Notes under the pieces: generated by a model
Database searches by the model: none
Told to the model about the DNA's origin: nothing
The model's input: only the letters and a program-made list of their open reading frames with translations
Shown here: positions 1 to 22,037 of the stretch, piece by piece
How positions within the stretch are numbered: the stretch's first letter is position 1
Layout: each line of letters opens with the position of its first letter
Translations under genes and position numbers: made by a program
Source of the DNA: Candidatus Magasanikiibacteriota bacterium
Lineage (GTDB): Bacteria; Patescibacteriota; Patescibacteriia; Magasanikbacterales; 2-02-FULL-50-9b
Assembly: GCA_943355025.1 (NCBI GenBank)
Contig: CALRDW010000012.1
Span: 1-32,213 of the forward strand
Direction: 5' to 3'
DNA length: 32,213 nucleotides

Positions 1-144
1 GAGCAGTGTGGAAATTGTAAATATAAACATATTTTTACACCACCGAAGCATAGGAGCAAAAGCAATTATAATCCCCACCGCTCCGTTATGTATTTAATTT
101 TGGCCAGTCGTACATGCGTGTACAATATGGAAATGAAATCATAA
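1..144 (+). CDS. C-terminal end of a truncated ORF (…EQCGNCKYKHIFTPPKHRSKSNYNPHRSVMYLILASRTCVYNMEMKS*), unknown product
   Basis: Frame 1 is open from the window edge to TAA at 142-144. No recognisable domain; a competing frame is also open for 95 nt, so coding is uncertain. Confidence 0.25.
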   Translation, partial: EQCGNCKYKHIFTPPKHRSKSNYNPHRSVMYLILASRTCVYNMEMKS

Positions 145-158
145 TCAAAAAAGGTTCT

Positions 159-269
159 GACAACGTCCCGAACGCGTACTGGAACCGTGACAATCGGCAG
201 GCGAACTTGAACAGGAACGAGCCGATGAATGTGAACGAGAATTATGGGACTGTTGGTGCGATCGGTTGA
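159..269 (+). repeat. Candidate DGR template repeat (TR) or decayed variable repeat (VR)
   Basis: Reads DNVPNAYWNRDNRQANLNRNEPMNVNENYGTVGAIG*. From 162 to 266, 10 of 35 codons are Asn (7 AAC, 3 AAT), spaced as N-x-N-x-N with W, R-x-A-N and N-x-G landmarks typical of DGR C-type-lectin repeats. The frame is closed by TAA at 69-71, so it is not the end of a long intact ORF. Confidence 0.5.
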
Positions 270-382
270 GTCAAACAGAAATACATTTGCGTGAAATTTT
301 CAGTCTGATATACTTTTGTCAGTGGGCCTGACGAATGACATGGCAGGACCGACACCGATTCAGTTCAGTCTAATTCTTGTAT

Positions 383-715
383 ATGCAGTTATTATCCGAT
401 CAGGAGTTTGTAGAAATGCTTGTGCGCGCAATTGTTGCGCATCCCGAATCAGTACGTACAGAACGCACGGTTGATGAGCGCGGAGTACTTATCACGCTTC
501 ATGTTCATCCGGAAGACATGGGCTATGTCATTGGTCGCGAAGGTCAAACGGCGCGCGCCATTCGCACACTTGCGAAAGTTGTTGGTGCAAAAAATAATGC
601 GCGCGTGAATCTTAAGATTGTTGAGCCAGAAGGATCGCGTGGCCCGCGTCCACGTGAAATGACACAGGCTCCGATGCGCGATGACGCACCATCAATCGAT
701 GATCTTGGAATTTAA
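383..715 (+). CDS. KH-domain RNA-binding protein (KhpA-like)
   Basis: Contains the KH GxxG signature (GYVIGREGQTARAIRTL). ATG at 383 preferred over the TTG at 377. Confidence 0.85.
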   Translation: MQLLSDQEFVEMLVRAIVAHPESVRTERTVDERGVLITLHVHPEDMGYVIGREGQTARAIRTLAKVVGAKNNARVNLKIVEPEGSRGPRPREMTQAPMRDDAPSIDDLGI

Positions 716-8816: not shown

Positions 8817-9464
8817 ATGCTTCCTAATCCTTTTGAAAAATCATTACCGCGCTTTGAGGATACAGACCCATTAAAAAATGCGGAGATTGTTCGTGAGTTT
8901 CTCGGACCAGAACGGGCGAAGAAATTTGCGCTCCTTTTTTCTGGAACTAAAAATGAGGTACAGCAACCGACAAGCACGGAAGAGTTACTTGCGATGAGCG
9001 CGGTTGCGAACAAGCTAGCCGAGGAGGAGCGAAGAAAATTAAGATTCGATCCTGAGTGGCAACAAAAAGAGCTCGAGCGTCGGATAAAGGATGTCAATAC
9101 CGACCAAGAATTTATTGTCGCTAATGTCTGGGCAACAGATTTTCCAGTTCCGGAGCAGCTTATTCCGGGGCCATATCGCGAAATTTATTTACTTGAGGGT
9201 GCCCCGCTCAGTGAATTTTTGGCAGAGCAGGATCGTAAAGGACTTCGACCTGTTGGTTTATATGAGTTGCTTGAGTATCTTCGAGGTGACAAAAATAATT
9301 GGTGGAGCGCTATTCCGCTTGTCGCGCTTGATTCTAGGTTGATGCGGCCTCTATATCCAGGTGTGTGGCGCGATCCTGGGGGCACTGCTGATGCACTTTA
9401 TCTGGAGACAGTGCCGGCCAGTGGGGCTAAAGAAAGCCTTCGGGTGCTGTTTGCACCAAAATAA
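8817..9464 (+). CDS. Hypothetical protein (215 aa)
   Basis: Intact ORF preceded by an extended -10 element TGCTATACT (8782-8790); no recognised domain. Confidence 0.75.
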   Translation: MLPNPFEKSLPRFEDTDPLKNAEIVREFLGPERAKKFALLFSGTKNEVQQPTSTEELLAMSAVANKLAEEERRKLRFDPEWQQKELERRIKDVNTDQEFIVANVWATDFPVPEQLIPGPYREIYLLEGAPLSEFLAEQDRKGLRPVGLYELLEYLRGDKNNWWSAIPLVALDSRLMRPLYPGVWRDPGGTADALYLETVPASGAKESLRVLFAPK

Positions 9465-10297: not shown

Positions 10298-12229
10298 ATG
10301 CCCCTTGCTCTTTTCAGAGATCGTGAACAAAATAAAAAAACTATTTTATTAAGCGTTGTAATTGCGGCTGCAACTTTTTTTGCATGCGCATTATTTTTCG
10401 CGCATCCTGTTTTTGCGGCGCAAGGGGACGCAATTCAAAATTTAAATTCTGTTCAAAAATCATCAGGGCTCGGAACCAAAAGTTTAGGGTCAATCATCGG
10501 AACAATCATTCATATATTTTTGGGCCTGGTCGGCGGCATCGCGCTTATCATCTGTATTTACGGTGGTTTTCTTTGGATGACGGCGGGCGGCAGCGAGGAG
10601 AAAGTTGAAAAAGCAAAACAGGTTTTGCGAAATGGTGTCATTGGGCTCGCACTTATTTTAATGTCATTCGGCATTACGCAATTTATCATGTCGAAAATCA
10701 ATGGTGCGACGCAAGGAACGCTTGCGGTTGGCGGCGCTGGTGGTGCAGGAAACGCGGGTGACGCATATTTGAAAAACTACGATGGTTCTTCCGCGCTTGG
10801 GACTGTTATTGATTCGCATAAACCGGGTCGCGGCGAATTAAATGTTCCGCGCAACACACTTATTAGTGTGTTATTTAAATTTCCCGTCGATCCCGCGACA
10901 CTTATTGATGCAAAATCGCCGCTCGCAAAACACAAAGCAATTATTGATGCTTCGGGAAAATCTGTTGACACGGTAATATCGGGTCCACTTAAGGAGGGTG
11001 CGATTTCGATTTTTGAAACAGCGGCAGGGAAAGAGGCATCGCTCAAAAGTTCGGAAGTAACGGTACTTATGGCAGGCGGCGGCACGGATCTTACTGGGTT
11101 TACTTTGTACCTTGGGAAATTGCTCGGCTCGTCACAGGATCCAACACCCATCACCGTCCAACTTTCGGACACAATCATGAAATGGAATGCGAAAAGTGTC
11201 AGCGCGTTTAAAGGGTATAAGCCGTATTCGTGGAAATTCACTGTTGGCACAACGCTTGACTTAACACCGCCGCGTGTTGTTTCGATCGTTCCTGTTTCTG
11301 GAAAAACGTACGATAAAAATATTACAATTCAAATTACATTTTCTGAACCAGTTAATCTCGCGAGTGCGGTTGGTGAATACGATCCAACAAAAGGAAAAAG
11401 CTTTACAAATATTACTGCGGCCGGAAAAGATTCAGCGCTGGTTCCTGGACAATGGCGCGCTGGATCAGGATTTGAAGTGATTGAATTTACACCACTCAAA
11501 GAATGCGCAACTAATTCTTGCGGACAAAAAATATTTTGTTTGCCGGGAAATGATGCAATTACGATTCGTGCACGATCAGGAAATATTAAAATTGGAAATG
11601 AACCGCAAGAAGATGTCGCGGGCGGTCTTGTTGGTGTAACGGATATGGCAAATAACGCGCTCGACGGCGGCGGCGAAAATGCAAAAACGCAGTGGAGTCA
11701 AAATAATGGGAAAGCACAAGGATCGGATGTCGACGATTTTTGGATGACATTTAATACAACGGACAAAACAAAAACAGGCGCGCCACAAGTTATTGATATT
11801 GATCCGCCGGCAGCAGCAACTTTGATTGCTGTCACGAGCGAAGTGAATATCACATTTGATTCGCTCATGAAAATTACATCATTTGGCGATGCAAAACTTA
11901 CGGCGCAAGATCCACGGGCGCAAGCAGGTTTTAGTAAAAACGCAGAAAATACAACGTTCAAAAATGCAAGCGATGAAACAATTGATGTTACAAAAATGAC
12001 GCTGGTGCATGTTGATCTCGCAAAAAACCAACCGTACGTCGTCTTTGTAAAAGACACAGCACAAGATATTTATCAGAACTGTTTTACACCAGCAACGGCA
12101 CCAAAGAATGATAAAAAAAATCTGTTCACTTGCAGCGATCCGAATCGCCAAGATAATTTTAATTGTTGTGATGGACAGGCAGCCGGTGATTCGTGTAAAC
12201 TGTTGAAGTATGACAAGAACGTTCCGTAA
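10298..12229 (+). CDS. Surface protein: T4SS-pilin (TrbC/VirB2)-like two-TM N-terminal module plus Ig-like domains
   Basis: GLGTKSLGSIIGTIIHIFLGLVGGIALIICIYGGFLWMTAGGSEEKVEKAKQVLRNGVIGLALILMSFGITQFIMSKINGAT, then Big_5/SbsA-like segments (PPRVVSIVPVSGKTYDKNITIQITFSEPVN). Confidence 0.85.
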   Translation: MPLALFRDREQNKKTILLSVVIAAATFFACALFFAHPVFAAQGDAIQNLNSVQKSSGLGTKSLGSIIGTIIHIFLGLVGGIALIICIYGGFLWMTAGGSEEKVEKAKQVLRNGVIGLALILMSFGITQFIMSKINGATQGTLAVGGAGGAGNAGDAYLKNYDGSSALGTVIDSHKPGRGELNVPRNTLISVLFKFPVDPATLIDAKSPLAKHKAIIDASGKSVDTVISGPLKEGAISIFETAAGKEASLKSSEVTVLMAGGGTDLTGFTLYLGKLLGSSQDPTPITVQLSDTIMKWNAKSVSAFKGYKPYSWKFTVGTTLDLTPPRVVSIVPVSGKTYDKNITIQITFSEPVNLASAVGEYDPTKGKSFTNITAAGKDSALVPGQWRAGSGFEVIEFTPLKECATNSCGQKIFCLPGNDAITIRARSGNIKIGNEPQEDVAGGLVGVTDMANNALDGGGENAKTQWSQNNGKAQGSDVDDFWMTFNTTDKTKTGAPQVIDIDPPAAATLIAVTSEVNITFDSLMKITSFGDAKLTAQDPRAQAGFSKNAENTTFKNASDETIDVTKMTLVHVDLAKNQPYVVFVKDTAQDIYQNCFTPATAPKNDKKNLFTCSDPNRQDNFNCCDGQAAGDSCKLLKYDKNVP

Positions 12230-15200
12230 TAATCTGATTCGATTATCTCGATTTTTTGTAATCGCAATCAGCGTCGGTGCGTTTTTATTTTTGCCTGCGG
12301 TTTCTGTGTTTGCGGCGCCGGCAGATCCGCTCGCTAATAATGCTGGCGCGTCGGATGTTGGGCTCACAACTGTTCAGGGCACGGCAGGGCTTGGAACAAA
12401 GTCACTCGGCTCGATAATCGGCAGCATCATCCACGGAATTTTGGGAACCATGGGCGTCATCGCGATCATCATCGTGATTTACGCGGGATTTTTATGGATG
12501 ACTGCGGCAGGAAGCGAAGAGCAAATTGAAAAATCAAAAAAATTATTACTTAATGGCGGCATCGGCCTCGTGATAATTTTTTCTGCGTATGCGATAACAA
12601 CATTTATTCTTGGGTCCGTTAGCGGTGCAACAGGAACTGGCGCCGCGAATCCAGGGGACGGTGGCGAAAATAATTTAAATTCGCAGGAAAGCGGAGGCCC
12701 GGGCGGTGGCAGTGGTTCTGGCGCGGGATTTGTGTTAAAAGGAATTACGCCGAGCGGCAAGCAGCTTGTTGCAAATCTTAAAGTCGCAGCAATTTTTTCT
12801 GCACCCGTTGATGTGGCAAGCGCTCAAAAAGCACTTGTTGTCACTGACGCATCAGGCGCGACGGTTTCGGGATCTGTTGGCGTCGATGGCGACATTATTA
12901 CGTTTATCCCGAGTTCAGTCTGTCCGAACCCAGACGCAGCGCTCAAATGCTTTGATGCGGGAGCTGAGTACACAGTAACGGTTACGGATGGAGCAGCAGG
13001 CGTGGTTTCTGCAATTGGAAAAAAGAAATTTACCTGCGGCGGTGGTTGCTCGACAAAGTTTACGGCTGGGACAGGTGTTGATAAAGAGGGGCCAAAAATT
13101 TCGAACACCGATCCAGAAGATGGCATGAAGGTGCCGGTAAATCAGATTGTGCCAGTTAGTGCGCTGCTTACCGACGACATCGCGGTTGCGTATGGTCGAT
13201 TATTTGTCGACGACAAACTTATAGAAACGGTTTTGGCGAAAAATTTGCCAAAAGAGTTTGAATTTTTCAGTAAAAAATTTGCAACAAAGGATGATAAACC
13301 GGGCCAGGCACGCAAATTAAAAATAGAAGCCCATGACACCGCAGATAATCTTGCAGCAGCAACGATTACTGTTTTTGGTGCGCCACAATCCTGCTTTAAT
13401 AAAGTGTTAGATCCTGTTCCAGCAGGCGACGAGATCGACATTGACTGCAGTCTTGCAGGCGGGGCATGTAATGAGTGCTCGACAAAACCCGTGATCAAAG
13501 GCGTTTCTCCACAGGACGGTGCGCCAGGGAATTTCGTTACACTTTCAGGTAGTAATTTTGGAAAGAATGCTGGCACCGTAACATTTTTAGGAAATGCTCT
13601 TGACCCGAAAGATGATGTTGTTGCGCCACTCGCGTGCGCGGCCGGCTGGTCAGGAAGCCAGGTGATTATTGAAATTCCAAAAAATGCGGTTTCTGGGCCG
13701 CTTCAGCTTAAAAATGAGGCCGGCCTCATTGATTCAACATCAGACATTAAGGGTGTGTATCTTAAATCATTTACAATTAATGATACTGTGCGTCCGGGAA
13801 TCTGCGCACTTACGCCGCTTTCAGGTTTTGGCGGAAAAACAAAAATAACTATTTCTGGGGCGACCGGAATTTCGCCAGACGGCGGCAGCCACGAGTTATT
13901 TTTTAGTGCGTTTGCGGCAGATCAACCAGAATGGACAGCAGATTCGGTTAGTGCGTTTGTGCCAACGTTAGAGCCGGGCCAAACTGAGGTTCAGGTTACA
14001 GCAGATGGTGTATCAAGCAACGCGCTTCTGTTTCAGATAACGGAAGATCCAGCAGCCGAAGCGCAGAAAGCAGTCGTGTCAGCGCTCGATCCGAAAAAGG
14101 GTGGCGTTGGACAATTTGTTTCGATTACAGGATCAAAATTTGGGTTTACACCGAATAAGGTCTTTTTTACGCCGATTGTTGGCGGTGTTCCAGTCGGAGA
14201 GGCGACGCCAGCAGATGTAAGTTTGCCAAAGGAGTGCGCAAAAAATTATTGGAAAATAAATGTAGATGATTCGGACGACAGCATTGTTATAAAAGTTCCG
14301 GAGCTTTCAGAGGGGGAATATGCAGTTACTGTTCAGCCGTTCGGTGTTGGAAAGGCAAGCTCTCCGAAGACATTTACAGTGACAAAGGAAAAACCGGGCC
14401 CACAAGTGTGTTCGCTGGTTGCAGACACAGGTCCGGGGGATGGCACGCTCAAGGTAAGTTTTTATGGCGAGCACTTGGGGACAAGTCCGGGCGGCGCACT
14501 CTTTTCGGATAAAAAAGTCGCAGCTACTCCAGTTAACGGAGGCTGGAACGATAATAATGCCGTAGTTATTGTGCCAAAGGGCGCTATCAGTGGAAGTGTG
14601 CGCGTCGCGATTGCAAGTGGTAAACCAATTGACGCAACTACGTGCGAGGCGAGCCCAGCGCTCTGTAGCAATCCACTCAAATTTACCGCGATTGATTGTC
14701 GCGTTCAGGCGAGCATTTGTGCAGCTGGAACAATGTGTTGCGGCGATGGGAGCTGCAAAGCAAGTTGTGGTGAGGGCGGGCCTGTCTATCACGCAGCAAC
14801 TTTTGCATGGTGTATTTCGACAGGAGAATCGTGTGCAGCTGCTCTGCCGCCGCGCATTGTTGAGGAATGTAAACTTGGTGACCCGACGAACATCGATATA
14901 CCGTCTCCAAGCCCGATGAGCGCGTGGCCGAGCACAACTGGGGCAAAGGTGTGTGTAAACGCAATGATTTCTGTAAAAATGACGGAGCCGGTTGATCCAG
15001 ATTCGGTTCTCATCAATAAAGGAGCTCTTAGCACGCTTACGATTCAGCGTTGCACGGGTGCGCCCGAAGCGCCGTGCTCGTCGTTCGATGAAAATCCGGT
15101 TGAGCTTACGAATCTTGTTGTAACATCACGTTCGGATAAAAAGAATGCGGGAATTTTTGTTCAACCAAAGGAACTTAAATCAAAGAGCACATACCGAATC

Positions 15201-18200
15201 GCGCTTACGGGAGGAATTTTTGGCTTTGATTCGGGATTGCCACTTGCAGGGCCAACAACAAATGTGAGTACGTGCAAGCCACAGGGCGACGAGGTGTATT
15301 GTTTCACATTTACAACAACCGACGACTATAACGTGTGCGAGATTGATGCGGTAAGCATGAGTCCACAAAGTTATATCGCAAAAAATTTGGGACCAATTCG
15401 CGATCCATTTTCAAAAGTTAAGCAGCTGCAGCCATGGCTCGCACTCGCCTACGCACAGCCGGATCATTGCCAGATCGTTGACCCATCACCGTTTCCATGG
15501 CAGTGGAATCCAGCAAAAGGAACCGATCAATATTACGATGTTGCGCATTCTATTTTGTTGAACTCACCGATTTCACATTTTCATGCAGTTCAACCAACAG
15601 AAGAAGGAAAAACAATTCCGCTTGCAATCGCGACAGTTAATGGTGCTGGCGAAAAATTGGTTGGCGCTGGACTCCTCGCAATCAATCCTGGAGTGCCGCA
15701 AGTTGTTGAGGCGTGTACAGAAGGATCAATGCCGTCGCCGACACCATCAAATTTGTGGGCGGATTCTGAAAATATTTGTCCAGACGCACTTGTGCTCGCA
15801 CAGTTTGATCAGCAGGTTGTTGGTCCCGCTGAAGGTCCTGTAGATTTTCAATTATGGGAGTGCACAAGCACCAAACCGGGCGAGGAATGCAAAACAGTTA
15901 CCTCTAAACCATTCCCAACTTCGTACGCAGAAATTCAGCCGAAAAAAATCCCAGGCGGTCCGTGGTATTATGAACTCGATCATAAAACATTGCCGAAGAA
16001 TACTTTTTTCTTGGCCGAAATTAAATCCACGACCAAAGTTCCGGGAAAGTTTGGTAAAGTGATGCCACAAAATAAAGCGTGCCGTCCGGGTGTTGGCTAT
16101 TGTTTTACATTTAAAACAGCAAAAACAATGGATCCGTGTAAGATTCAGAAAGTTATTATTTCGCCGGCAACTTGGCTTGCGGAAAACTACGGACTTCAGA
16201 AAAATGAAATTGGCGCTGATATTCTGTGGTCAGCATATCCACAGCCAGAAAATATTTGTACCGTGCTCGGTGGCGGACATACGTATAATTGGGGTGTAGA
16301 CACGGAACATCTTGGGTTTGCTGCAATTGATCCGGAGAATACACAGGCAGACGTAAGTGCAGAGCAGCCTGTTTCGGCTTTGAAGGAAACGGTTGACGAT
16401 GATCTGATTAAATTATTTGCAACAACTGAGGGAATTACAGGTACTGCGGAAATCAGCGTGCAGTTTCCTGATCCTACTGTTGTCGAGCACGAGCCTTTTT
16501 CATGTGTTGGCGGGTCAGTTTGTCCAAACGCATTCATGGGCGTCACTTTTTCCGTTAACATGGATCCAAAGACAGTGTCGGATAATATTTATTTGTATGA
16601 CTGCGGCGCTGTAAGCGATGTAAATCCGACGATCGACTGTCCGTTTGATGCGGCGTTGTGGAAAAAGAACGCTGTTAAATTAACTGCGTCCCCAATTGCG
16701 GCATCAAATAAAACGAAGTTTGAATTTTTTAAGAACGGCGAAAAACTTGGTACAACGCTCAAAACAATGACCCAGTACCGTCTCGCGGTTGGCAAAAATG
16801 TTTTGTCGGCGGCATCAAAGCCACTTGGAGGGTTAAATTTCCCAGACGCACCAGCTGTTTTTCTGTTTTATTCCTGGGTGTTTAGTACGGGTAATGCATT
16901 GTGTACCGTTGACCATGTTTCTGTTGCGCCGCTTATAGCCCAAGCTCACGCGCAAGGAGAGACACGTACATTTACAGCATTACCGTATACTTCGCCGGAC
17001 GCGTGTCATCCAAATGGACAAGCGCTCAACCCTGATGAGTATAAGTGGAGCTGGAGCTCAAGCAAGCCGCTTGTGGCAGCGCTGTTCCCACCAGCGCCTC
17101 CAGACATTGCAAAATCGAGCACATCCTCAACACAGGAATTTTACATGCGTGCCGCAGATGTTACGGGAACGAGCAGTACTCAGCAGTCGACTTTGACAGC
17201 GCTCGTTCAGGGTCAGAGCAAAAAAGGAGAGGCAACATGGAAAATGGTGTGTGCATCGCCACCGCTCGGATGTCCGTTAGTGACTGTTAATGGGCAGTCG
17301 CAGCAAACATATCCTGGCGCTGACAAATGTTGTTACGTTCCTGCAAAAATTGTAAAACCATACCCAGCGGCAGGGGACAAAGACGTGTGTATCAACACAC
17401 TCATTAAGATTCCTGTAAATACGCTGCTCGATCCACTCACAATTACATCGTCAACGGTTCAGATTGGTATCATAGACGCAAAAAATCCATGTAAAAGCGC
17501 GAATGGTAAGGATGCGTTTTGCTATGGCAAAATTCCGTATTCAGCGAATGTTGTCAATACGAAAATTGGTGAGAAAAATCAACAATACTCGTTTATTTTC
17601 CTGTCACTTCTCGACACACTCCCAGAAAACTCTAAAGTTCGTATACATGTCATGCGACAACCAGGTCAGGAATCAGAGCCGCCAGCCTCCGCGGTCATGT
17701 CTCAAAAAGGTGTGCCGATTGACGGGCAGAGTTGGGATTTTGAAACGGGAAGTAAGCCGTGTGAATTAAACGCTGTCGACGTATATCCGCCGCAGTCCAC
17801 CTTTACAAATCTCGCCGACAAACAGTCGATGTTCTCAGTTGGTGTAAGCAAACAGGGTGATTTCTCGATACCGTTGTCGCCAATTCCAAATAAATATGAT
17901 TGGACGTGGAAATGGTTTAGTTCACACACAGATGTTATCGCGTTTGACGCGGCTTCAAAGTTGCCTGCGACCACAATTAAGCCAGCGGGCTTGAACGGCG
18001 TGTCGACAATTACCGCATTTGCCTCCACAACTGTTGATGTTTACTTTAATTCAGGTAACAAGGTTGCGGGCTCTGCGATTGCAACTGCAGCACTTTGTGA
18101 AAATCCATGGTTTGCGGAAACGGATAGCGGCCTTGCGAATGACGACGCATCAAAAGATGTTCTCAAGAAGTTTCACCTGTCGTTTTGGTATTGCCGCGAC

Positions 18201-21200
18201 AACAAGGGCAAGCCGAACACTCTTCCTGCGGTGTACGGTGTCTACGATAGTTTGAGTGATAAAACATTTACTACGCAAGAAGCATTTCATCTTTCGGATT
18301 TTAACGACAATACAGGTGCAATCGGTGTTCGAATCGAATCAAATCTCAAGCATTATTCGCCACTTGAATGGTATTTACAAAAAGAATTTAAAGGCGATGC
18401 AGCTGCAACGAAGGTCGGCGGATTTCCTGCGGTTCGCGTGGGCGACACGGTTTATGTTGGTGTTGGTAATAAATTGTCGCCAACACAACAGTTTACGAAC
18501 ATCGTTGTTATGAGTCTTGCTGCGGGCTCGTCTGCAGACATGCAGGGAATTTTTAATCAGCTTGTTGCAAATATTCGATTTAATACCGACCTTAAAGATC
18601 TCGGACTGTGTTTTGCTGTGAATGATCAGGCGACAGATGTACAGTGCACGAGTGATGTTGCGTGCGTTGACGCGGGTACGGACGCAGTGTGCAAAGTTCC
18701 GCGTGCAAAGTTTATGCGAGACATTGTTCGCATCTCGGATGCATCTGCGCTTGCGCGAGCACTTTTGAAGGCGCATGATTCTGCGAATAAGTTTCCAGTG
18801 GTTACGGACGGGACATTTGTTCCAGGGCTTGTTAGTAGTAAGTGGCCAGCGTGGGCTGCGTTCATGGAGCAGCTCCATGTTCCAGCAGACCGCGTTGATC
18901 CAGTGAATGTATATACGTGTCCCGCGGGTTTTGATCCCGAGACGTGCTGGAACGACAAAATAAAACAATATCAGTGCAATCAGACATCGTATGTCTACCA
19001 TTATTACAGTAAGAATAATGGCGCTGGATACGAGCTTGGTATTCCGTTTGAGGAAGGTGCTGCCGGCTACACAGCATGGAACGCTCCAATTGGAATTCCG
19101 GATGGCAGTTCAATAAATCCTACATTTTGTTCAGGTAAACCGTTTGCGCCAGCTGCCGTTTGTGGTGATGGAGCAGTAACGCCGGGCGCTGAAGAGTGCG
19201 ATCCGCCAGACTCATCTTTTAAATTCGCCGATGCTCAATGTCTCTATGCAGCGCGCGCAGCAACGTGCAGTGCAACGTGTACAAAGATTCCTGGTAATTG
19301 TGTGAATTTGTGCGGTGATGGAATTAAAAATGGTCCAGAAACGTGCGATGAAGGACCGAAATATAATGGTAAGTACAATCACTGTCCGATTGATTGTGGC
19401 GTAAAAAATCAAGTTAACGAGCTTGGCGCATGTGGCGACGGCATCAAACAGTCGAATGAGGTGTGCGAGATTGGACAACCATCAGGGCGTAAATATAAAT
19501 TTGCTGATTTTCCCGACCAGGATATAATAGATTTCGTTGAATGTCGACAAGGTGTCGAACTGAAAAACCTTCCACACTTCGTGCCGTCTGCAGGGTTACT
19601 GCAATTCTCACCGACAGGCGCTATAGCGGTTACTAATTTTGCGGATGCGATCACGAAGTTTTGTTCTGGCAAGGCTGCGGCGCAATATGGATCCTGCAAA
19701 AAATATCCGGATGTTGCGTGTGTAAGTGATGCAAATTGTCTTGCGGGCGACACATGTTCATTCGTGACACAAGGCTCAAAGCATGGATTTCAAAAGATTG
19801 ATTCCTGTAATTGGAATTGTAAAAACTTCGGCCCTTATTGCGGAGATAAAATTGTAAATAAGGATAGCGGCGAACAATGCGATGGTGACGAAACAGGATC
19901 AGATCCACAGACAGGTGACGCGTGTGTTCGAAAGTGTACTGCCTCATGTCAGTGGCAAAAAACCGTTGCTGTAGATGTTTATGATGTTAATAATGTTAAA
20001 TTGAATGGAGCTCTAACTCCAGTCTGCGAAATTATAGATAATTCAAAAAATGCACCAGACATTGCTGGGTGTGGCGACGGAAAAGTTGATTCAGGAACTG
20101 GCGAGGAGTGTGACAGCGGGACCCAATGTAAACCGGGCCAGAACCCGAAGAATGCATCATGCAAAATTGGTGGCTTGAATAATGTCCAGTGTCTTGCGCA
20201 ATACGGCGCTGGAAATTCTTGCCAATATTGCACGGCGAGTTGCAAAAAAGCGTATGTGAGTGGCGGATATTGCGGCGACGGCATTCGTAATGGATCGGAA
20301 GTGTGTGATAAGAATGATATCGGGTATTTGTGCACGGATAAATACGATTATGGTTTTGCATATTGCAAACCAGATTGTAGCGGCACAATCAAGACGAATA
20401 AGCCGACGCAGGGCAGCATGATAATTGCGCAGAGTCCATCCACAGGATTGTGGTGGCCAGCGGTTGTGCTCTCAGCGCTTCCGACAGGGGACTTTAATAT
20501 TGAATTTACGGATGGCGTTCAATATCCAGGACCGAATAGCAATAATAAGCCTGCGCGCGCGTCAATGGTCGCTCTTGTTGGTGCTGTTTCAGCAGATCCA
20601 ACTGAGCCAGAACCATATGCGATTGGCATGACGGTTCTCACAGGCGACACACCGACAGAGCTTTTGTGGGCAACTGTTCTCGCCGAAGTTAAAAAAGATG
20701 GCAAGGTGAGCTCCTCACTTAAGGACGCTGCGGGCAAGCTTATTATTCCCGATCATGAATGGAAAAAAGCTGTTATTACAGCGGTCGGCGTTGGAAGTTA
20801 TACAGTTAAATTTGAGGATGGCACGATTAAGACAGGTGTTAAGATTACAAATATCGCACGGTTCCCGACTATTTGTCTGAGTTGCGCGCAGCAATCAGAG
20901 GACAATGTACAGCTTAAGAAAGAGCCGCAATATAGTACTATTAAAAACATTGAACTTACGTACACTGATCCAACTCTTGGTTGGTTTCCTCTGCGCACCG
21001 TTACGGAAATATTCCGCGGCGGCACACTGCTTGAGTACGCGGGCGCTCAAAATGATGTATTTAATTCCGCATTGTTTGGTAAAGGCTGGCCACATGTTGC
21101 TGGCACGGCTGCGACACATACAGTTTCTCCGATTGCGATTGATGTCGGCCCGAAAATAAATGCAACAATAAACCAATGTTTGGCAGTGGCAAAAACGTAT

Positions 21201-22037
21201 GCTGTTTATCCGTTCGCACACCCTAATGCGCAAGATCAGTGGTTATCGAATGTTCAGTTTAAGCTTCGTCCAGCAGGCGGTGCCTTCAGCTACACAGCCC
21301 CACCGTTTGAACTTACGGGCACGGCTGATCTGAAACAGACTGTTGAGCTGGAGCCTGCTGGTAAAGAGGGGGATTATCGAGTTGTTGTTTCGGGCCTTGT
21401 TCCAGGGCAGCAGCAGTTGAGTGTTCAATTTTTTCCGATTAACGGCTCTGTTTTGCCAGCTGGATCGCCACTTACCCTCAAGTCACTCATGCTTCCTAAT
21501 GATTCTTGGGTTTCAAATTGTCCTGTGGGTTCAAACGGTTGGCTTGATAAAAATAAGCGTTATGACACAGTGAATGATGATCAGGGGTATCAGGCCGCCT
21601 CAATTGCGTGGCTCGATGGCTGTTTGACGAGTGGCTTATTTACACAAATAGAAAGTGTTGTTGCATATGCTGGCGATGTTATTCCAGCGACACACAGGTA
21701 TATTGTTAGTATGTCAAAGCCTCTTGCGTCGGCGTATTACAATAGCTCCTACGAATTTTCAGTATATCAATCAAATGGCGCACCAAATTTTGCAGGGATT
21801 GTTGCGAATGTGTATTATCGCGCGGGTGCGCCAGATCCGATTACAAATCAGTATTGGAAATTAGTTGCTTCGATCAAGCCATCGCCCACTGATGCGTATA
21901 CTGATGACGGTAAGAAGTGGAATGCGTTTCATTTTCATGCGCAGCAAGATGGCCAAGCTTATACGCCGAGTGATGCGCTATTTACAGGCGCATTTGCGAA
22001 TGGTGGAGATGCAAAAAAACTACCTCTTATAAAATAA
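12210..22037 (+). CDS. Giant (3275 aa) multidomain surface protein with T4SS-pilin-like N-terminal module
   Basis: Same pilin-like module as the upstream gene, then IPT/TIG-like repeats, about four Cys-containing Ig-like modules, a pilin-globular-like domain, Myxococcus-type CGDGxxxxGExCD repeats and Tudor-like segments. Continuous ORF overlapping the previous stop by 20 nt. Confidence 0.9.
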   Translation: MTRTFRNNLIRLSRFFVIAISVGAFLFLPAVSVFAAPADPLANNAGASDVGLTTVQGTAGLGTKSLGSIIGSIIHGILGTMGVIAIIIVIYAGFLWMTAAGSEEQIEKSKKLLLNGGIGLVIIFSAYAITTFILGSVSGATGTGAANPGDGGENNLNSQESGGPGGGSGSGAGFVLKGITPSGKQLVANLKVAAIFSAPVDVASAQKALVVTDASGATVSGSVGVDGDIITFIPSSVCPNPDAALKCFDAGAEYTVTVTDGAAGVVSAIGKKKFTCGGGCSTKFTAGTGVDKEGPKISNTDPEDGMKVPVNQIVPVSALLTDDIAVAYGRLFVDDKLIETVLAKNLPKEFEFFSKKFATKDDKPGQARKLKIEAHDTADNLAAATITVFGAPQSCFNKVLDPVPAGDEIDIDCSLAGGACNECSTKPVIKGVSPQDGAPGNFVTLSGSNFGKNAGTVTFLGNALDPKDDVVAPLACAAGWSGSQVIIEIPKNAVSGPLQLKNEAGLIDSTSDIKGVYLKSFTINDTVRPGICALTPLSGFGGKTKITISGATGISPDGGSHELFFSAFAADQPEWTADSVSAFVPTLEPGQTEVQVTADGVSSNALLFQITEDPAAEAQKAVVSALDPKKGGVGQFVSITGSKFGFTPNKVFFTPIVGGVPVGEATPADVSLPKECAKNYWKINVDDSDDSIVIKVPELSEGEYAVTVQPFGVGKASSPKTFTVTKEKPGPQVCSLVADTGPGDGTLKVSFYGEHLGTSPGGALFSDKKVAATPVNGGWNDNNAVVIVPKGAISGSVRVAIASGKPIDATTCEASPALCSNPLKFTAIDCRVQASICAAGTMCCGDGSCKASCGEGGPVYHAATFAWCISTGESCAAALPPRIVEECKLGDPTNIDIPSPSPMSAWPSTTGAKVCVNAMISVKMTEPVDPDSVLINKGALSTLTIQRCTGAPEAPCSSFDENPVELTNLVVTSRSDKKNAGIFVQPKELKSKSTYRIALTGGIFGFDSGLPLAGPTTNVSTCKPQGDEVYCFTFTTTDDYNVCEIDAVSMSPQSYIAKNLGPIRDPFSKVKQLQPWLALAYAQPDHCQIVDPSPFPWQWNPAKGTDQYYDVAHSILLNSPISHFHAVQPTEEGKTIPLAIATVNGAGEKLVGAGLLAINPGVPQVVEACTEGSMPSPTPSNLWADSENICPDALVLAQFDQQVVGPAEGPVDFQLWECTSTKPGEECKTVTSKPFPTSYAEIQPKKIPGGPWYYELDHKTLPKNTFFLAEIKSTTKVPGKFGKVMPQNKACRPGVGYCFTFKTAKTMDPCKIQKVIISPATWLAENYGLQKNEIGADILWSAYPQPENICTVLGGGHTYNWGVDTEHLGFAAIDPENTQADVSAEQPVSALKETVDDDLIKLFATTEGITGTAEISVQFPDPTVVEHEPFSCVGGSVCPNAFMGVTFSVNMDPKTVSDNIYLYDCGAVSDVNPTIDCPFDAALWKKNAVKLTASPIAASNKTKFEFFKNGEKLGTTLKTMTQYRLAVGKNVLSAASKPLGGLNFPDAPAVFLFYSWVFSTGNALCTVDHVSVAPLIAQAHAQGETRTFTALPYTSPDACHPNGQALNPDEYKWSWSSSKPLVAALFPPAPPDIAKSSTSSTQEFYMRAADVTGTSSTQQSTLTALVQGQSKKGEATWKMVCASPPLGCPLVTVNGQSQQTYPGADKCCYVPAKIVKPYPAAGDKDVCINTLIKIPVNTLLDPLTITSSTVQIGIIDAKNPCKSANGKDAFCYGKIPYSANVVNTKIGEKNQQYSFIFLSLLDTLPENSKVRIHVMRQPGQESEPPASAVMSQKGVPIDGQSWDFETGSKPCELNAVDVYPPQSTFTNLADKQSMFSVGVSKQGDFSIPLSPIPNKYDWTWKWFSSHTDVIAFDAASKLPATTIKPAGLNGVSTITAFASTTVDVYFNSGNKVAGSAIATAALCENPWFAETDSGLANDDASKDVLKKFHLSFWYCRDNKGKPNTLPAVYGVYDSLSDKTFTTQEAFHLSDFNDNTGAIGVRIESNLKHYSPLEWYLQKEFKGDAAATKVGGFPAVRVGDTVYVGVGNKLSPTQQFTNIVVMSLAAGSSADMQGIFNQLVANIRFNTDLKDLGLCFAVNDQATDVQCTSDVACVDAGTDAVCKVPRAKFMRDIVRISDASALARALLKAHDSANKFPVVTDGTFVPGLVSSKWPAWAAFMEQLHVPADRVDPVNVYTCPAGFDPETCWNDKIKQYQCNQTSYVYHYYSKNNGAGYELGIPFEEGAAGYTAWNAPIGIPDGSSINPTFCSGKPFAPAAVCGDGAVTPGAEECDPPDSSFKFADAQCLYAARAATCSATCTKIPGNCVNLCGDGIKNGPETCDEGPKYNGKYNHCPIDCGVKNQVNELGACGDGIKQSNEVCEIGQPSGRKYKFADFPDQDIIDFVECRQGVELKNLPHFVPSAGLLQFSPTGAIAVTNFADAITKFCSGKAAAQYGSCKKYPDVACVSDANCLAGDTCSFVTQGSKHGFQKIDSCNWNCKNFGPYCGDKIVNKDSGEQCDGDETGSDPQTGDACVRKCTASCQWQKTVAVDVYDVNNVKLNGALTPVCEIIDNSKNAPDIAGCGDGKVDSGTGEECDSGTQCKPGQNPKNASCKIGGLNNVQCLAQYGAGNSCQYCTASCKKAYVSGGYCGDGIRNGSEVCDKNDIGYLCTDKYDYGFAYCKPDCSGTIKTNKPTQGSMIIAQSPSTGLWWPAVVLSALPTGDFNIEFTDGVQYPGPNSNNKPARASMVALVGAVSADPTEPEPYAIGMTVLTGDTPTELLWATVLAEVKKDGKVSSSLKDAAGKLIIPDHEWKKAVITAVGVGSYTVKFEDGTIKTGVKITNIARFPTICLSCAQQSEDNVQLKKEPQYSTIKNIELTYTDPTLGWFPLRTVTEIFRGGTLLEYAGAQNDVFNSALFGKGWPHVAGTAATHTVSPIAIDVGPKINATINQCLAVAKTYAVYPFAHPNAQDQWLSNVQFKLRPAGGAFSYTAPPFELTGTADLKQTVELEPAGKEGDYRVVVSGLVPGQQQLSVQFFPINGSVLPAGSPLTLKSLMLPNDSWVSNCPVGSNGWLDKNKRYDTVNDDQGYQAASIAWLDGCLTSGLFTQIESVVAYAGDVIPATHRYIVSMSKPLASAYYNSSYEFSVYQSNGAPNFAGIVANVYYRAGAPDPITNQYWKLVASIKPSPTDAYTDDGKKWNAFHFHAQQDGQAYTPSDALFTGAFANGGDAKKLPLIK

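Follow-up and report, generated by a model that had tools for sequence, protein, structure and literature searches.

The regulation of diversity-generating retroelements (DGRs), which are systems of targeted hypermutation, is, to our knowledge, poorly known, and a mutator that is constantly active should be costly. Among the systems described so far, Roux et al. 2021 (PMC8144416) found one clade, DGR clade 2, to be restricted to Patescibacteria and reported below-average activity for it, with purifying selection as a suggested reason; that paper does not mention a repeat or a frameshift in the reverse transcriptases (RTs) of clade 2. In the DiGReF survey (PMC3521204), a frameshift in a DGR RT was read as a sign of inactivation or as an error of sequencing, and no DGR had more than four variable repeats (VRs). 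In the open-access papers searched, DGRs and phase variation are mentioned together, but DGRs are not joined with slipped-strand mispairing and no DGR RT is described as switched by a repeat; the paper of Paul et al. 2017 about DGRs in CPR bacteria lies outside this scope, and priority is uncertain.

The window analysed here is the complete contig C12, a stretch of 32,213 nt from Candidatus Magasanikiibacteriota, in a 98%-complete genome assembly of 988,540 bp and 33 contigs. Its left end carries a template repeat (TR). From the copies of this repeat and the RT genes that accompany such copies, we consider it likely, with a probability of about 0.8, that the window copy is a DGR template, in all probability an orphan one, and that the RT serving such TRs is phase-variable through slippage.

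The template repeat at the left end of the window

An earlier note on this DNA, made from its letters, had pointed to an Asn-rich peptide at window positions 159–269 and had proposed a DGR repeat there, with a TR favoured over a VR. The peptide is present, with 10 Asn codons (7 AAC, 3 AAT) and a TGA stop, and so is the in-frame TAA that the note had placed upstream at 69–71; its length needs correcting, from the 35 codons claimed to 36 sense codons. One of the two tests set beforehand that could refute the proposal was a search of the genome for near-copies with adenine-biased mismatches, and such copies were found.

By blastn, near-copies of window positions 1–420 lie on C28, C2, C24, C13, C23, C15 and C3. 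Four copies, those of the window (C12), C28:807, C2:85064 and C24:8793, are non-coding, TR-like and have a common upstream flank. In seven further copies the repeat is the 3′ terminus of an open target ORF; three of these ORFs are complete, the other four are truncated where their contig stops, and in all seven the VR is followed by the target stop codon. Compared with window positions 159–240, these VRs are mismatched at 117 of 189 template adenines but at no more than 22 of the 385 non-A positions (seven VRs, Fisher p = 2e-48). The TR core, defined by this bias and by a per-site table, lies at 159–240 on the forward strand and has 27 unmutated adenines. The TR most similar to it is the C24 copy, and each of the 27 adenines there occupies codon position 1 or 2, none position 3. 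The letters found at TR adenine sites over nine VRs are A (95), G (94), T (32) and C (22). The VRs that can be aligned, nine or more in number, and the four TR-like copies are dispersed over the ~1-Mb genome, and the G-rich 3′ ends of TR and VR copies are unlike each other in the alignment used for an IMH/IMH* comparison. The window TR has no match among phage records.

Window positions 159–269 are a TR of a DGR. That this copy is a TR and not a VR follows from its unmutated adenines, its non-coding character and a 5′ flank common to other TRs, in agreement with the earlier note. One could read the segment instead as a chance Asn-rich fragment, or as a dispersed repeat unrelated to DGRs, and a window that contains no RT might be cited in favour of this. 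The adenine-specific mismatches with seven target ORFs refute it, and the flank common to the TR copies also stands against it, as do the RTs that the genome contains, some of them next to sister copies of the repeat, so that we regard its probability as practically nil.

The 5′ flank of the TR extends over positions 1–158 of the forward strand, as judged by blastn and by alignment of the copies. Its part from 54 to 158 is common to the three other TR copies, the C28 copy matches the flank throughout, and the cassette is already under way at position 1, where the contig starts. No promoter or terminator was found in window positions 1–500. On the other side, the 3′ end of the repeat (241–276, forward strand) resembles the end of a target gene, with the stop TGA followed by AGTCAAAC; a perfect hairpin comes right after the repeat in the C24, C13 and C28 copies, but the window copy has none. 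Positions 263–276 match target-gene ends at 10 of 14 sites and TR ends that precede an RT at 3 of 14, which is a short match. To the right of the window TR there is no RT; a putative gene for a KH-domain RNA-binding protein, taken from the ORF list and matched by NCBIfam KH-domain models below their curated cut-off, adjoins it instead (377–715, forward strand). The lack of a neighbouring RT and the target-like 3′ end make it probable that the window copy is an orphan TR, one that arose by recombination between a TR and a VR. On C13, a target gene runs into a TR 3′ end, followed by a hairpin and then the RT, as would be expected of the converse product. These short matches would be read most simply as the outcome of recombination of VR with TR copies.

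Elsewhere in the window, a 215-aa ORF (8817–9464, forward strand) aligns over its first ~30 residues with the N-terminus of the target family, fitting MLPNPFxKxLPxFxDTDPLKNxEIVRExLG, whereas its C-terminus is unlike that of the family and lacks a VR. Positions 12210–22037 form one ORF of 3,275 aa with a hydrophobic N-terminal stretch, and this giant protein is probably secreted or exposed on the cell surface.

Target proteins and RT genes of the genome

The target family has 32 matches in the genome, comprising at least 16 near-full-length paralogues and including several pieces at contig ends, and the contig break at window position 1 is accounted for by a dispersed family of this kind. The proteins are ~370–400 aa long, and most of this length is conserved, with the last ~37 residues variable. 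A genome of the same family (G003) has 12 matches, and two genomes of the same order (G021 and G035) have 3 each. In these two, short contigs (L097, G021:C15; L098, G035:C6) carry target-family VR copies at both ends in opposite orientation, with a DGR between them; it looks as if the assembly had broken within target copies that lie inverted to each other.

The C-type-lectin fold is usual, not obligatory, in DGR targets, and the earlier note had expected such a scaffold. Searches of Pfam, PHROGs and NCBIfam gave no significant family for the target, and Foldseek against PDB and BFVD gave nothing significant. An AlphaFold model of the target is confident in its C-terminal half. Structural realignment of the target to PDB chains returned mostly C-type-lectin/FGE folds at middling Z scores of 5.3–6.4; the VIA-align rows include Mtd (5.4), TaqVP (5.3), an FGE paralogue (5.7) and DCIR (4.4). 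The target C-terminus is predicted to be C-type-lectin-like and to resemble the DGR targets Mtd and TaqVP, as the note had supposed, a lectin fold being indicated by structural realignment alone.

A search for DGR-type RT genes, also proposed in the note, locates them on contigs other than that of the window. PF00078 matches lie on C30, C24 and C13, and phrog_1423 also matches the RT in the profile search. Both RT genes of the system, those of C13 and C24, change frame at one loop. The two halves of the C13 gene are open in different frames and carry the DGR motifs GIPIGNLTSQ and YGDD, and the break falls just before GIPIGNLTSQ, at AAAGAGAGAGGGGGAGC. The C24 gene (L014, 7880–8375, minus strand) keeps a (GA)9 tract, the sole place with (GA)6 or more in the 988-kb genome, and has lost its YxDD part through an internal deletion from GIP to SYYG. 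The RTs of G035 and G021 have (GA)10 at the same loop, with their halves in different frames.

A second, partial DGR-like RT with the motifs GLPLGNLTSQ and YNDD is present on C30 (L013, 3039–4196), directly after an ORF ending YGFRLERRVPLST. This RT and the preceding ORF, which ends in GFRLERR, were considered as part of the system and left out of it, as no A-biased repeat pair was found on the contig. The assembly thus contains no full-length RT in a single frame, the C13 gene being split, the C24 gene internally deleted and the C30 gene partial. Since the assembly breaks at these repeats, an RT copy may be missing from it; if none is missing, the local DGR may be dying, because the C13 tract has decayed and the C24 RT is without its catalytic part.

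Simple repeats in patescibacterial RT genes

When 84,980 species genomes were scanned for GA tracts of six units or longer, at most 30 nt before the DNA of GIPIG[NKS][LF]T, 29 GA-tract RT loci emerged, with tracts from (GA)6 to (GA)35. Named Patescibacteria-type lineages account for 27 of the 29, and L110 matches G279, which is placed in that phylum. The tract is in frame at five of these loci and in either off frame at the others, with an open half on both sides. The GA-tract RT pattern was not found in IMG/VR.

For a sample blind to the tract, RTs were gathered by their catalytic motif alone, 67 from Patescibacteria and 71 from viral contigs. A score-ranked set of viral RTs was dropped as a control because ranking favours unbroken RTs, and the motif-only set took its place. 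In this sample, a simple repeat occurs in the gene of 39 of 67 patescibacterial DGR RTs and of 1 of 71 viral ones (p = 6e-15); split frames number 23 of 67 against 0 of 71. The flanks of the sampled RTs contain 3 simple repeats per 105 kb.

The loop before GIPIGNLTSQ holds (GA)n, G10, (CT)16 or (AGCA)8 in different RTs, and related RTs of Wolfebacteria have (GA)35 and (GA)17. A tree of 106 RTs shows ~14 changes of state for the tract at the loop, against a mean of 29 in shuffles; with fewer changes than in the shuffles, the tract is inherited, yet it has been gained or lost repeatedly. An AlphaFold model of a natural in-frame RT with (GA)13 has a mean pLDDT of 87, the exception being the disordered tract loop at residues ~190–222. 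Judged from this model, which is confident except at that loop, the loop probably tolerates different lengths.

Tracts also occur at or just before the RT start, 540–670 nt before GxPxGNLTSQ, as poly-G9–13 (L148–L152, L155, L156, L158, L169, L170, L175 and L177), (CTGTC)7 (L135) or (GA)6 (L176). At this site the tract of L149, L170, L175 and L177 lies within an ORF that encodes the N-terminus and continues into the RT; other tracts lie upstream of the start. A third site is mid-gene, with (GA)10–16 located ~255 nt before GxPxGNLTSQ and ahead of LKMDIKSFF in L190, L192 and L204; the tract is in frame in L190 and L204 and out of frame in L192. Two individual loci may be added. L120 has a compound loop tract at 1214–1278, (GA)6 followed by G9, in which two slippery repeats adjoin. 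In L134 the loop of the DGR RT has no repeat tract but is interrupted by in-frame stops, and the TR/VR pair beside it has 26 adenine and 0 other mismatches.

Counting one genome per species, the tract among homologues is in frame in 5 cases and in the two off frames in 21 and 12. In-frame tracts (5 of 38) fall below one third (p = 0.009), a deficit that could come about through selection that keeps the mutator off in most cells. Programmed slippage, which we rank as the main rival to phase variation, would draw on the same counts. The ribosome or the RNA polymerase would slip on the tract and a little full-length RT would be made constantly, with no switching in the DNA; a −2 ribosome slip on GA repeats re-pairs perfectly, in-frame tracts are under-represented, and one off frame is the commoner. 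The imbalance of 21:12 is, however, not significant (p = 0.16), and in place of a single fixed shift direction at a conserved slip site we found both offsets, in-frame members and several repeat units. Nor would a specific slip site predict that CT16, AGCA8 and G10 occupy the GA loop, or that additional tracts lie near the gene start and in mid-gene. On balance we hold programmed slippage to be unlikely.

Every one of the 33 genes with a split frame has a second half that is open over at least 138 codons and includes YxDD, and the dN/dS of this half is 0.085–0.2 in unsaturated pairs. By these codon measures, the out-of-frame part of the RT is under purifying selection. Adenine-specific TR/VR pairs were found automatically at 41 of 83 RT loci, and at the 18 loci with an off-frame RT the TR–VR mismatches sum to 304 at adenines and 22 elsewhere. 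This ratio indicates that mutagenesis was recent relative to ordinary divergence, despite the off state that was sequenced.

The same observations bear on the possibility that the RTs are pseudogenes broken at a mutation-prone repeat and the DGRs dead relics. The C24 RT without its catalytic part and the decayed C13 tract would fit such decay, which is also how frameshifted DGR RTs were read in the DiGReF survey (PMC3521204). It is, on the other side, difficult to reconcile with second halves that are open and retain YxDD in 33 of 33 genes at the dN/dS given above, with almost exclusively adenine changes in VRs beside off-frame RTs, with an enrichment of the repeat about like that of a conserved feature (39/67 against 1/71), and with the existence of in-frame tract genes, and we judge decay to be highly improbable. 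Open halves on both sides of a purine-rich GA tract that resembles a Shine-Dalgarno site might suggest instead that the halves are made separately, by re-initiation after the tract, and then assemble. The (CT)16 and (AGCA)8 tracts are unlike Shine-Dalgarno sites, no conserved start codon after the tract is evident by eye, and relatives have the same enzyme as one ORF with the tract in frame or absent; an RT of two polypeptides is therefore given almost no weight.

A probable switched mutator and its relation to known systems

We prefer phase variation of the RT by slippage, and the course of events would be as follows. An RT that makes errors at adenines would copy the TR RNA into cDNA, which would then take the place of the C-terminal VR in members of the large dispersed target family, with the window TR used in trans. 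A hypermutable simple repeat, usually (GA)n, in the disordered loop just before GIPIGNLTSQ would change its repeat number at replication and shift the C-terminal half with YxDD into or out of frame. Active RT would be made only in cells with a fitting repeat number, and the sequenced majority would be mostly off; in a minority of cells the RT would come on, the target family would be diversified, and the RT would go off again, so that switching in living cells would be reversible. In general terms, it seems to us probable that the patescibacterial DGR mutator is a contingency locus, in which the RT gene has repeats at one to three places (5′ end, mid-gene and the loop before GIPIGNLTSQ) that switch targeted hypermutation stochastically, and two diversity generators are nested one in the other.

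A phase-variable RT, if true, would explain how many hypermutable genes are kept in very small genomes, and it would offer a reason for the less active look of the patescibacterial DGR clade in population data. Surveys that filter on RT length would then undercount DGRs in Patescibacteria, and tract length in metagenomic reads would mark cells in the mutating state.

The system described here probably corresponds to DGR clade 2 of Roux et al. 2021 (PMC8144416). It shares with DGRs the order target(VR)-TR-RT, the adenine-specific TR/VR mismatches and the motifs GxPxGNLTSQ and YxDD, and with DGRs including clade 2 the targets without recognisable domains and a target end that is, by prediction, C-type-lectin-like; unlike clade 2 as described in that paper, its RT gene is often interrupted by a simple repeat. 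Like DGRs of the DiGReF survey (PMC3521204), it combines intact TR/VR with a frameshifted RT and has several paralogous targets, some paralogues being without a VR; unlike those DGRs, with their four VRs or fewer, it has nine or more VRs that can be aligned and, in addition, four TR-like copies, all of them dispersed. Its resemblance to the SSR contingency loci of Neisseria, Haemophilus and Campylobacter lies in a tract within the ORF or at its 5′ end, a variable number of units, on and off frames among homologues and the conservation of both halves. It differs from those loci in that it is found across many lineages of Patescibacteria, in that switching is here proposed from the frames of homologues, and in that the gene to be switched would encode a targeted mutator, where those loci control surface structures or restriction enzymes.
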